The notes under the pieces were generated by a model that did not search any database, was not told the origin of the DNA, and saw only the letters and a list, made by a program, of their open reading frames with translations. A stretch of DNA of 64,000 nucleotides, taken from an uncultured Dehalococcoidia bacterium. Lineage in GTDB: Bacteria; Chloroflexota; Dehalococcoidia; Lucifugimonadales; UBA3495. Shown in pieces: positions 13,400 through 43,213 of this stretch (the first letter of the stretch is position 1; each line of letters starts with the position of its first letter). The position numbers and the translations under genes were made by a program. The stretch lies in contig OY282494.1 of the NCBI GenBank assembly GCA_958296385.1, positions 2,083,537-2,147,536 on the forward strand, given 5' to 3'.

Positions 13400-13801
13400 C
13401 TATTCCGAACCAACCGGCACGCGGAACGTCGGTTGGCCTTCCGCATCGTGAGTGTGGCTCGCCAACGCCTGCAACAGCTGCTGGTTGCCGCGCCGAATCT
13501 CCTCATGCAGCCCGCGAAAGCCCTCCCGCATATCGTGGTTCAGTTGGTCAACCCGGTTACTGAGTTGATCAACCCGACTGTCGAGTTGATCCACCCGGTT
13601 GTTCAGCTGGCCAACCTGACCGACGAGCTGGTCAACCCGGTTATCGAGCTGGTCAAACCGATTGCTGAGTTGGCCCGTTTCCTTGCCCAGGTGGTCAACC
13701 TGGTTGCGCAATCGGCCCAGCCAGTATGTACCGCCGGCGCCCAGTATGAACAGGCTAAGTATGCTGACTATCGCCGTGATGACGGCGGGGTCGCTAATCA
13801 T
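13400..13801 (-). CDS. Membrane-anchored coiled-coil protein, long paralogue
   Basis: The 133-residue protein starts at MISDPAVITA with one transmembrane helix (about residues 5-28), then a long coiled coil made of near-perfect heptads (QLxNRVDQL, five or so), ending EIRRGNQQLLQALASHTHD. The heptads are also repeated at DNA level as about 21-bp units. It is a tandem paralogue of the gene at 13885 with the same helix, tail and promoter. Such proteins can be oligomerising membrane scaffolds; no enzyme motif exists. Start at 13801 follows GGAGA; a longer frame is possible but only adds repeat-derived residues. Confidence 0.75.
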   Translation of the reverse strand: MISDPAVITAIVSILSLFILGAGGTYWLGRLRNQVDHLGKETGQLSNRFDQLDNRVDQLVGQVGQLNNRVDQLDSRVDQLSNRVDQLNHDMREGFRGLHEEIRRGNQQLLQALASHTHDAEGQPTFRVPVGSE

Positions 13802-13854
13802 TGCCGGCGTCTCCGAAAGGAATAGCAAAGGTTGCGCGGCGTGGCCGCTATTAC

Positions 13855-13884: not shown

Positions 13885-14193
13885 TTACTCCGCACTAACC
13901 GGCATACGGAACGTCGGCTGGCCCGCCTCATCGTGCGTGTGGCTCGCCAACGCCAGCAACAGCTGCTGGTTGCCGCGCCGAATGTCCTCACGCAGTTCTT
14001 CGCGGAGCGTGCGAAATCCCTCCTGCATATCGTGGTCCAGCCGGTCAACCCGGCTGTTCAGTTGGCCCATTTCCTTGCCCGAGTGGTCAACCGGATTGCT
14101 CAGCCGGCCCAGCCAGTAGGCACCGCTACTGACGACTATGAGCCAGACGGGTATGCTGAGTATCGCCGTGATGACGGCGAGGTCGCTAATCAT
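13885..14193 (-). CDS. Membrane-anchored coiled-coil protein, short paralogue
   Basis: The 102-residue protein starts at MISDLAVITA with one transmembrane helix and then a shorter coiled coil (QLNSRVDRLDHDM, GFRTLREELREDIRRGN) and the shared tail SHTHDEAGQPTFRMPV. It differs from the neighbouring paralogue mainly by lacking about four heptads, as expected from repeat contraction or expansion. The two genes share promoter and leader sequence but are separate transcription units. Function unknown. Confidence 0.75.
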   Translation of the reverse strand: MISDLAVITAILSIPVWLIVVSSGAYWLGRLSNPVDHSGKEMGQLNSRVDRLDHDMQEGFRTLREELREDIRRGNQQLLLALASHTHDEAGQPTFRMPVSAE

Positions 14194-14246
14194 TGCCGGC
14201 GTCTCCGAAAGGAATAGCAAAGGTTGCGCGGCGTGGCCGCTATTAC

Positions 14247-14294: not shown

Positions 14295-14996
14295 TTAGTA
14301 GTCGTCCACGCGGTTTTCGATGTGCATTGGGTCGAAGCCGGGGGGGAAGTTTGTTGTGTTGTCCCACTTGCCCATGGTCATATCGCAGCGGTGGAGGCTG
14401 GCCTGGTTGAAGTTTGCGCCGCGCAGGTCGGTCATAATCCACATGGAATCGCGGATTTTGGCGGCGGTGAAGTCGGCGCCCTGCATTACGGCCCGGCTAA
14501 CGTCGGCGCCGTTCAGGTTGGCGCCTTGCCAGTTGGAATCGGTCAGATTGGCGGAGCGCAGGTCAACCTCGATGGCGGTGGTTTGGCTGCAATCGGCTCC
14601 GGTTAGGTTGGCGCTGAGGAACGACGCCCGGTTGAGCCGGGACCAGCGCAGGGTGCTGCCGGTCAGGTCGGATTGCTTCAGGTCGGCCCAGAACAGGTTC
14701 ACGTTGCAGAGGGTGGTATTTGCCATGTTGGCGGCGGACAGGCTGGCCCCGCCCAGGTCGGCGCCGGTCAGGTCGGCGGCCCGCAGGTCGGTGCGGGCCA
14801 AGTTGGCTTTGGCCAGCCGGGCGTCGGTGAGGTTGGCCCCGCGCAGGTCGGCGCCGCGCAGGAACGCCTGGCCGAGGTCCAGGCCGCACAAGTCGGCGGC
14901 CCGCAAGTCCAGGGCAGTGTCCGGGTTGTCGTCGCGCCAGGCCCGCAGGGTGGCGGCGCCGGCGCGAACTATGTCCAGATGTTCGGGGTTAGCCAT
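14295..14996 (-). CDS. Pentapeptide-repeat protein
   Basis: The 233-residue protein consists, from about residue 25 on, of A(D/N)LxG pentapeptide units (LRAADLCGLDLGQAFL, GADLRGANLTDARL and so on), which fold into a right-handed square beta helix. No signal peptide or membrane segment is seen. Some pentapeptide proteins mimic DNA and protect gyrase, but most have no known role and nothing here favours gyrase protection. It lies 30 bases downstream of the selenoprotein gene on the same strand and could be the last gene of that transcript. Confidence 0.85.
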   Translation of the reverse strand: MANPEHLDIVRAGAATLRAWRDDNPDTALDLRAADLCGLDLGQAFLRGADLRGANLTDARLAKANLARTDLRAADLTGADLGGASLSAANMANTTLCNVNLFWADLKQSDLTGSTLRWSRLNRASFLSANLTGADCSQTTAIEVDLRSANLTDSNWQGANLNGADVSRAVMQGADFTAAKIRDSMWIMTDLRGANFNQASLHRCDMTMGKWDNTTNFPPGFDPMHIENRVDDY

Positions 14997-15025: not shown

Positions 15026-15367
15026 TCAGTTAGTCCCGATGGTCAACGGGGCCGACTGGCTGCCGGCGGCCATCATTTCGTCTTCGACGTCAAAGACGCG
15101 CTCGGCGATGGTCATTTTGAGCTCGTTGACTTTGTTGTAGCTGGGGTATTCGCCGTCCTCCTCGAAACGGTCAAAAATCTTTGCGCCGTCAAGGTAGATT
15201 TCCAGGCGGCCCCGGTCGGCCGGGGTCAGTTTGACTGCGATGTCGCCCGCGTTTTGCGAGCGCCAGAACTCGATCGCCAGCCACGTGGCGAGGCCGTGGT
15301 AGCCTCAAGGCACGCAGTACACGATGTCCACTTCAACTTTGCCAAACTCTGATCTTGTCATCGTCAT
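15026..15367 (-). CDS. SelW-like Rdx-family selenoprotein with in-frame UGA (Sec21)
   Basis: Reading from the ATG at 15367 and decoding TGA at 15305-15307 as selenocysteine gives 113 residues to a second TGA at 15026. The N-terminus is EVDIVYC-VP-U-GYHG: the CxxU redox motif after a beta strand, followed by Gly-Tyr, as in SelW/SelT/SelH (Rdx) thioredoxin-fold proteins. The later part (LEIYLDGAKIFDRF, then a C-terminal helix) also fits the Rdx fold and length. GGAG lies 7 bases before the ATG, and the gene sits 14 bases after the hot-dog gene at 15382. The frame stays open and normally coded on both sides of the UGA. A hairpin suited to selenocysteine insertion follows, and selB is in this window. 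A one-base pseudogene is the main alternative. Confidence 0.88.
15274..15291 (-). promoter_or_regulatory. Candidate bacterial SECIS hairpin
   Basis: In the mRNA, UCGCCA and UGGCGA pair as a 6-bp stem around the loop CGUGGC. Counting the U of the UGA as 1, the stem covers 17-34 and the loop's G-U lies at 24-25. That is close to the position of the loop G-U recognised by SelB in the classic fdhF element. The pairing was found by hand; no folding energy was calculated. Confidence 0.6.
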
Positions 15368-15381
15368 GCTGTAGCTCCGAT

Positions 15382-15807
15382 TTACGCGCCGATGCGGGCG
15401 GTGGCCTGTCCTACGGCGGTTTTGTCGCCGTTCTGGTTCTCGCAGTACACGTCAACGATTACCATAGTTGAGCCGTCATCCTGCGGCTCCCGGCTGTTGA
15501 GCTGGCCGTGCACCGATACGGTATCGCCGTCTTTCACCGGACGCAGAAACTTGAGGTTGACGTTGCCGCTGCGGTGAAAGTCCTCGGCGCCGACGAACTT
15601 GCGCATTGCCTCGGTGCAGAAAGCGATGCTCATGCGGCCGGAGGCGATGGCGTAGGTGGTGCCGAGGCGCCGGGACGCCAGCTCCGGGTCGTTGTGGATG
15701 TTGGAGCGGTTCAGGATGCCGCACGCCTCAAACTGGTTGATAACGTCCTGCGTGATGTGCTTGGTGATGACGGGCAGCGTGGCGCCGTCTAGCCTTGCGG
15801 ATGCCAT
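15382..15807 (-). CDS. MaoC-like hot-dog dehydratase domain protein
   Basis: The 141-residue single-domain hot-dog protein has FHRSGNVNLKFLRPVKDGDTVSV and TMVIVDVYCENQNGDKTAVGQATARI, the strand pattern of MaoC/R-specific enoyl-CoA hydratase domains. These hydrate or dehydrate acyl-CoA or acyl-ACP in the cytoplasm. The stop codon of the 15789 gene overlaps its start by 19 bases, indicating coupled translation, and the two probably make a two-subunit hydratase (FAS1-like plus MaoC). The selenoprotein gene follows in the same operon. Confidence 0.8.
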   Translation of the reverse strand: MASARLDGATLPVITKHITQDVINQFEACGILNRSNIHNDPELASRRLGTTYAIASGRMSIAFCTEAMRKFVGAEDFHRSGNVNLKFLRPVKDGDTVSVHGQLNSREPQDDGSTMVIVDVYCENQNGDKTAVGQATARIGA

Positions 15808-16214
15808 TTTTTACCCAACTCCTCCGGTTTTTTCAGCTGATAGGTACGCATTTTCTCGATGAGCCGCCCGTCCTCGTCGGTAGCGGTGGCCTCAATTACC
15901 AGGTAGGGCTTGTCGCGCCGGACGTATTTATCGTGGATGCGCCCGGTGACGAGGATTTTCTTGCCGGGAACCGGCGGGTTGTGCAGCTCAATCTCGTTGC
16001 CGGCGTTCACGCTGCCCGTCTGGTCATCGTAGGCCAGGGACAGGGACGTGGCATCGTGCTTGACGGCGATGGTGGGGAACACCGCATCGGGGTCATCTAC
16101 GGCCCGGCGGTACAAATCCACCATTTCCTGAGTAAGCACGTACTCGTAGGAACCGAGTTCCTCGCCAATTTCAACCTCGTTGTAATCAAAAAGAGGCAGC
16201 TCTTGTTCAGACAT
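15789..16214 (-). CDS. FAS1-like/MaoC N-terminal-type hydratase subunit
   Basis: The 141-residue protein starts at MSEQELPLFDYNEVEIGEEL; the ATG at 16214 follows GGAGGATT. Features such as EIGEELGSYEYVLTQEMVDLYRRAVDDPDAVFP and PGKKILVTGRIHDKYVRR (each spread along the chain) match the FAS1-like dehydratase domain that pairs with MaoC domains. It is the first gene of a minus-strand operon. The larger fused gene at 61221 is a possible single-chain counterpart. Substrate unknown. Confidence 0.78.
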   Translation of the reverse strand: MSEQELPLFDYNEVEIGEELGSYEYVLTQEMVDLYRRAVDDPDAVFPTIAVKHDATSLSLAYDDQTGSVNAGNEIELHNPPVPGKKILVTGRIHDKYVRRDKPYLVIEATATDEDGRLIEKMRTYQLKKPEELGKKWHPQG

Positions 16215-41267: not shown

Positions 41268-41347
41268 GCGGCCATCGCATCGGCATCGGCATCGTTATCG
41301 CCGCTGGCTTGCTTTGGCTGTTACGCTTGGTTTGGGTTGAGTTTGCT

Positions 41348-43213
41348 ATGTTTGTTATTGGTACTGCCGGTCATGTTGACCACGGCAAATCTACTTTGGT
41401 TAAGGCTTTGACTGACATTGACCCTGACCGGCTCCCGGAGGAGAAGGAGCGGGAGATGACGGTTGATTTGGGGTTTGCGTGGATGACGCTGCCCAGCGGG
41501 CGGGAGGTTAGCATTGTTGACGTGCCGGGGCACGAGCGGTTTATCAAGAATATGCTGGCCGGCGTGGGGGCTATTGACCTGGCTTTGCTGATTGTGGCGG
41601 CTGATGAGAGCGTGATGCCGCAGACGCTGGAGCATCTGGCTATCCTTGACTTGCTGCGTATCCGGCGGGGGCTGGTTGTCGTTACCAAGGCTGATTTGGT
41701 GGACGATGAGCTGGTGCAGCTGGTTATGGCGGAGGTGGAGGATGCGCTGGTGGATACGTCTTTTGCCGGCTGTCGGATGATTGCCGTTTCCGCTTATACC
41801 GGGCAGGGGCTGGATGAGCTGAAAGGGGCGATTGACGGCATCCTGGACGATACCGAAACGCGCCGGGATTTGGGGCGGCCCCGCCTGCCCATCGACCGCA
41901 GTTTCACCGTCAGCGGCTTTGGCACCGTCGTTACCGGCACGCTCATCGACGGCGCAATGGCGGTGGGGCAGCAGGTGGAGCTGTCCCCGTCGGGCGTGTC
42001 GGCGCGGATTCGCGGGTTGCAGAGTCATAAATCCCGGATGGACGCCAGCGCGCCCGGCGTCCGTCTGGCGCTGAACCTGTCCGGCATCTCCCGGGATGAC
42101 GTGATGCGGGGCGAAGTGCTGACTAATCCCGGCTGGCTGCAAGCGTCGCGCCGGGTTGACGCACGCCTGCGGATGGTGCGGGGCGCCCCTCATGCGCTGA
42201 AGCACAACGAGGGGGTGACGTTCCATCTCTTTACCAGCGAAACTACCGGGCGGGTGCGGCTGCTGGACGCGGACCGGCTGCCGCCGGGCGCCGAGGGGTG
42301 GGTGCAAATCCTGCTGGATGACCCGGTGCCGATGGTGAAAGGGGACTTTTTCGTGCTGCGTTCCTCTGAGGACACGCTGGGCGGCGGGCAAGTCGCCGAC
42401 CCCAGCCCCCGGCGGCGGCACCGCCGGTTTGCCGCCGACGTGCTGGAACGCCTTACCACGCTGGACGCCGGCGCCGACGAGGACGTTATCATCACGCTGG
42501 CCGACCAGCTGGGGCCGTGCAGCGTGCGCACGCTGTCGCAGCGTTCCAATCTGTCGGAGGCCGAGGTGCTGGAACGGCTGGCGGAGCTGACGGCGCAGGG
42601 GGAAACGGTGGCGCTGGGCGAGTTGGGCGCGTCGGCGGATGCGGTGGTCTATTCCCGCCGGGGGTGGGACATCGTGCGGAATCAGGCGCAGGTTGCCTTG
42701 CAAACTTATCATAATCAGTACCCGCTGCGCCGGGGGGCGCCGCCGCAGGAGCTGCGCAGCCGGCTGAAACTGCCGCAGGCGGTGTACGTCCGGGCCGCCG
42801 CCCGGCTGGGCGACGAGGGGGTTGTGCTGGACGACGGCGGGCTGGTCAAGACGCCGGAGCATCGGGTGGAGTTGAGCGACGGGCAGCAGGCGGCCGCCGC
42901 TAAATACCTGCGGGCGCTGGCCGACGAACCCTGGTCGCCGCCAACGGATTGGCCAATTGACGCCGAACTGCTGAACTACCTGCAAGACCGGGGGGACGTG
43001 GTGAAAGTCAACGAAACGGTGGTGTTCACGACGGCGGCCTATCAGGATATGGCGGCACAGGTGGTCAAGCATCTGGAGGCCAACGCCAGCGTTACCGTAG
43101 CGGACGCCCGCACCATCTTTGGGACGAGTCGCAAGTACGTGCTGCCGCTGCTGGAATACCTGGACCAGCAGCGCATCACGCGCCGGGTGGGCGATGAGCG
43201 GGTGCTGCGCTGA
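41348..43213 (+). CDS. selB: Selenocysteine-specific elongation factor SelB
   Basis: The 621-residue protein starts MFVIGTAGHVDHGKSTL. It has EF-Tu-like GTPase motifs (GHVDHGKS at 8-15, DVPGHERF, TKAD), the SelB-type TVDLGFAW switch region, beta-barrel domains (FGTVVTGTLIDG) and a C-terminal set of winged-helix domains ending RKYVLPLLEYLDQQRITRRVG. SelB brings Sec-tRNA to UGA codons marked by a SECIS hairpin. Its presence implies selA, selC and selD elsewhere in the genome. ATG at 41348 is chosen because the upstream extension is not conserved in type. The Shine-Dalgarno is weak. Confidence 0.95.
   Translation: MFVIGTAGHVDHGKSTLVKALTDIDPDRLPEEKEREMTVDLGFAWMTLPSGREVSIVDVPGHERFIKNMLAGVGAIDLALLIVAADESVMPQTLEHLAILDLLRIRRGLVVVTKADLVDDELVQLVMAEVEDALVDTSFAGCRMIAVSAYTGQGLDELKGAIDGILDDTETRRDLGRPRLPIDRSFTVSGFGTVVTGTLIDGAMAVGQQVELSPSGVSARIRGLQSHKSRMDASAPGVRLALNLSGISRDDVMRGEVLTNPGWLQASRRVDARLRMVRGAPHALKHNEGVTFHLFTSETTGRVRLLDADRLPPGAEGWVQILLDDPVPMVKGDFFVLRSSEDTLGGGQVADPSPRRRHRRFAADVLERLTTLDAGADEDVIITLADQLGPCSVRTLSQRSNLSEAEVLERLAELTAQGETVALGELGASADAVVYSRRGWDIVRNQAQVALQTYHNQYPLRRGAPPQELRSRLKLPQAVYVRAAARLGDEGVVLDDGGLVKTPEHRVELSDGQQAAAAKYLRALADEPWSPPTDWPIDAELLNYLQDRGDVVKVNETVVFTTAAYQDMAAQVVKHLEANASVTVADARTIFGTSRKYVLPLLEYLDQQRITRRVGDERVLR

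Follow-up and report, generated by a model that had tools for sequence, protein, structure and literature searches.

Relationship to described SelW-like selenoproteins

SelW-like proteins form the most abundant selenoprotein family in the Sargasso Sea set, with 48 genes (PMC1088965), and in the GOS collection they are, together with SelD, the most widespread selenoprotein family, with 427 sequences (PMC2398784). A 2006 survey counted ten SelW-like selenoproteins in sequenced bacteria and noted that Cys forms were few among organisms that use Sec (PMC1794560). The GOS paper makes no mention of SAR202 or Chloroflexi (PMC2398784), and our literature search, which had most subscription journals and preprints outside its reach, retrieved no paper linking SAR202 with selenoproteins or selenocysteine. 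The gene described here lies in the window (the whole 64,000-nucleotide stretch of DNA that was analysed) and resembles the Sargasso Sea and GOS genes in its CxxU motif, its small Rdx domain, and a SECIS-like element directly past the UGA (PMC1088965, PMC2398784). Those genes came from environmental reads; for the present gene the host lineage is visible, as are three paralogues and the conservation of its neighbourhood. Since the family is already the most abundant among marine bacterial selenoproteins, the gene adds a member to a known family, and the underlying mechanism of Sec insertion is already textbook. What is gained is a reliable selenoprotein set for an abundant, mostly uncultured, and little-studied marine lineage, and a candidate host group to which SelW-like genes common in ocean metagenomes can now be tied.

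By comparing family membership, UGA conservation, Sec/Cys exchange, Sec machinery, and a hairpin together with its conservation, we predict, at a probability of about 0.96, that the product is a SelW-like selenoprotein (Rdx family) from a SAR202-cluster Dehalococcoidia bacterium, into which Sec would be inserted at the UGA by means of SelB and the hairpin. Relatives at 57 to 88% identity are titled SAR202 cluster, Dehalococcoidia, or Chloroflexi/Chloroflexota bacterium.

A single UGA interrupts an otherwise open Rdx frame

The initial annotation had described a 113-codon frame with a single internal TGA between two minus-strand genes, and the translation agrees with it to the base. The selW-like gene (15026..15367, minus strand; 113 residues with a predicted Sec at 21) starts with the ATG at 15367, carries an in-frame UGA, the candidate Sec codon, at codon 21 (15305..15307, minus strand), and ends with a terminal TGA (15028-15026). 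It reads MTMTRSEFGKVEVDIVYCVP, followed by the UGA-encoded position and then GYHGLATWLAIEFW...IGTN and the stop. A GGAG (15375..15378, minus strand), likely the ribosome-binding site to judge from its sequence alone, lies seven bases upstream of the ATG. The ORF list holds no minus-strand ORF of at least 40 aa between 14996 and 15382, so ordinary gene calling probably skips the gene, much as had been proposed; the case illustrates how standard gene calls can drop UGA-containing selenoprotein genes. Scanned outside likely genes, the window holds 11 candidate cases of frames that a single TGA joins, of which this was the sole one recognised as a known protein.

For profile searches, the TGA was read as Cys. 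The resulting protein passed the cut-offs of both Pfam Rdx (PF10262; E = 2.4e-11; 44.1 bits against a cut-off of 22.6) and the NCBIfam SelT/SelW/SelH model TIGR02174 (CXXU_selWTH; E = 2.5e-9; 37.3 bits against 34.2), and with these scores the frame is not a chance one. It falls far under the cut-off of NF041051, the Campylobacter SelTWH equivalog (36.1 against 88). The TGA falls at the Sec position of the Rdx motif, as the initial annotation had it (YC-VP-U-GY): the translation gives C18-V-P-U21-G-Y, and homologues have Cys in that column. Among PDB sequences, the nearest solved structures are bacterial SelW-related proteins. These (PDB codes 2fa8, 2obk, 2p0g, and 2oka) and mouse SelW (2npb) share fold and family with the predicted product, at an identity of only 22 to 36%; the bacterial structures differ from the UGA-encoded protein in having Cys aligned at the Sec place.

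An AlphaFold model built from 11 family sequences, good only in the best of five models (pLDDT 81.8, pTM 0.72), has the secondary-structure order E-H-E-E-E-H, with the CxxU motif where the first strand (residues 11 to 18) ends. All 22 top Foldseek matches of this model are SelW-related or Rdx proteins (TM 0.69 to 0.88 by target), and the modelled product has the thioredoxin-like SelW fold. C18 and U21, at this strand end, would form the CxxU redox pair of what is most likely a small cytoplasmic thiol/selenol oxidoreductase.

Conservation of the UGA and its exchange with Cys

A family search recovered a TGA-bearing match in 49 of 50 genomes, and the TGA sits at the same codon in all 48 orthologs of the SAR202 family that were read out. 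Codon differences from the window copy, counted on aligned codons within the genus, are 82 synonymous against 5 replacement upstream of the UGA and 172 against 57 downstream, where chance would give a synonymous share of about 22%; these counts indicate that purifying selection acts on both sides of the UGA. An Rdx family search of 400 genomes of the phylum gave a match in 65, the source genome included, and wherever the column of residue 21 was cleanly read it held TGA or Cys. Two genomes of the same order (G147 and G251) have YCVPCGY, with Cys in the UGA column. Because elongation factors turn up in the selB family search of each genome, a match was counted as SelB only if it reached E = 1e-85 or better. 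The best selB matches of these two genomes reach only elongation-factor level, so they are taken to be without SelB. Beside the source genome, 41 genomes have a TGA match; by our reading, 40 of these have a selB match at the SelB threshold, against 15 of the 23 genomes whose Rdx matches lack TGA. The exception, a genome of 88% completeness (G093, locus L073), has an Rdx gene with TGA and is without a strong selB match, probably because of missing sequence.

A SECIS-like hairpin downstream of the UGA

A SECIS-like hairpin (15274..15291, minus strand) spans nt 17 to 34 counted from the U of the UGA, with nt 17 to 22 paired to nt 29 to 34. Its 6-bp stem encloses a 6-nt loop that begins 19 nt past the UGA and reads CGUGGC in the window sequence (general form CGUGGN), with G in second place, and its energy is -8.7 kcal/mol. 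The published bacterial SECIS model has a loop of 3 to 9 nt, a stem of 4 to 16 bp, a spacing of 16 to 37 nt from the UGA, G within the first two positions of the loop, frequently with G or U next, and an MFE of at most -7.5 (PMC13188914). The hairpin agrees with this model in loop, stem, G, spacing, and energy, and the energy stays within the limit in 46 of 48 orthologs. A search of the gene region against Rfam at a permissive threshold matched no SECIS family. RNAfold structures of 45- or 66-nt windows vary, and only the hairpin of nt 17 to 34 is common to them. Across the 3.3-Mb genome there are two occurrences of the pattern TGA-N14..16-GCCACGTGGNTGGC, one in the selW-like gene and one in a second paralogue.

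Codon use across the orthologs bears on whether the hairpin is kept. The Ala codon 6 past the UGA is GCC in 48 of 48 orthologs and the Thr codon 7 past it is ACG in 35 of 35; Ala +23 and Thr +27 vary, with four codons each. The pair 18-33, which joins two third codon positions, is always standard (C-G in 38, U-G in 6, A-U in 2, and U-A and G-C in 1 each), and by our reading its departures from C-G/U-G fall in at least three separate ortholog lineages. Its covariation exceeds that of all 500 shuffles (27 distinct sequences from two paralogue groups). Among the five core pairs it alone covaries, the other four being almost invariant. When the helix is slid out of register, the paired share in the 27 distinct sequences falls from 97.8% to at most 60%. 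In each of three paralogue groups the hairpin region is more stable than 300 of 300 synonymous-codon resamplings, a comparison that ignores shared ancestry; in the window sequence alone the hairpin is not unusual, 14% of resamplings being as stable. On these comparative grounds, the putative element is maintained through extreme constraint on codons, together with covariation at a single pair.

Paralogues and the Sec machinery of the source genome

The same genome has two further UGA-containing Rdx/SelW-like paralogues, at C1:1220735-1221010 (locus L042; motif YCVP-U-QH) and C1:3140854-3141042 (locus L041; motif YCWD-U-GH). Both carry TGA at the place seen in the selW-like gene and have their own conserved orthologs in relatives, with TGA in 43 sequences of the second paralogue and 15 of the third. 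The second has the same hairpin with a shorter stem and a marginal energy (-7.4 in the source genome), and the third, while different in sequence, has a hairpin near the same place.

The source genome holds the full set of selA, selB, selC, and selD. The gene for the selenocysteine-specific elongation factor SelB (41309..43213, plus strand; 357 bits) lies inside the window, about 26 kb from the selW-like gene. SelA is matched at 1.7e-134. Of the 50 family genomes, 49 have a SelA match as well, and the weak matches in a few incomplete genomes may represent a related enzyme. The tRNA-Sec (selC) scores 66.4 bits and has the anticodon UCA. SelD (C1:1766127-1767047, minus strand, locus L052; 374 bits) carries its own in-frame TGA in the active-site region (HCAG-U-AAKL). 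Two places past the usual Sec/Cys position this SelD has Ala, unlike E. coli SelD, which has Cys there.

The SelW-like selenoprotein reading put forward in the initial annotation is supported, and each of the computational checks it named that was run came out favourably: the translation finds Rdx/SelW proteins (Pfam Rdx at E = 2.4e-11), close relatives have retained both frame and UGA (48 of 48 orthologs), homologues have both Cys and UGA at codon 21, and selA, selC, and selD are all present, with selB besides. The conserved SECIS-like hairpin is a feature that the initial annotation leaves unmentioned.

Alternative readings of the UGA

Cys in the UGA column of many homologues would also be expected if a Cys codon (TGC or TGT) had recently turned into TGA, leaving a dead gene, or if the base had been miscalled. 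This is extremely improbable and is already refuted by the conservation of TGA and frame: the 48 TGA-bearing orthologs come from separate assemblies, purifying selection acts on the frame on both sides of the codon, and three paralogues have the same TGA in the same place. A reading with two separate products, in which a 20-residue leader peptide stops at the UGA ahead of a downstream gene, can draw on the plausible ribosome-binding site and start of the first part. We give it hardly any credence, as the downstream part is without a common start codon early enough for the Rdx domain and the conserved strand of the fold, with its Cys, lies in the first part.

An open frame through the UGA leaves the inserted residue unspecified, and a changed code or a suppressor tRNA (tRNA-Cys or tRNA-Trp) might place another amino acid there. 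Such decoding, if marginally less remote than the two preceding readings, is likewise very unlikely: this gene and some orthologs also end on UGA as a true stop, the UCA-anticodon tRNA that was found is tRNA-Sec, and a tRNA-Cys with anticodon GCA is present in the source genome. The internal UGA occurs only at the Sec site, where it alternates with Cys and precedes the SECIS-like hairpin. It almost certainly encodes selenocysteine, and we infer its actual insertion at residue 21. In the proposed mechanism, SelB with Sec-tRNA(Sec) would bind the hairpin immediately 3' to the UGA, selenocysteine would go in at residue 21, and the ribosome would then continue to the terminal UGA.

Gene neighbourhood

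The selW-like gene is preceded by two MaoC/FAS1-dehydratase-like genes on the same strand (15789..16214 and 15382..15807, minus strand, the latter 14 bases upstream) and followed, 29 bases downstream, by a gene for a pentapeptide-repeat protein (14295..14996, minus strand). Most of this order (maoC-like, maoC-like, selW, pentapeptide-repeat) is kept in relatives: at each locus examined the pentapeptide gene comes after selW, and at most loci the MaoC/FAS1-dehydratase-like pair lies ahead of it, the exceptions including one group of genomes with no such pair in the DNA around selW that was examined. An operon in which selW is co-transcribed with the MaoC-like genes is likely. The neighbourhood offers an entry to the function of bacterial SelW. 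In many SAR202 bacteria of the family there are two or three SelW-like proteins, divergent and UGA-encoded, of which one sits beside the MaoC/hotdog-type pair and the pentapeptide-repeat gene, and we raise, only as a speculative and rather doubtful proposal, that this might point to a specific, as yet undescribed selenium-dependent redox role in lipid or CoA-linked catabolism. Farther along the minus strand, 13400-13828 and 13885-14220 encode adjacent similar small proteins with VDQLxxR-type repeats and one N-terminal hydrophobic stretch each, which look like a tandem duplication.
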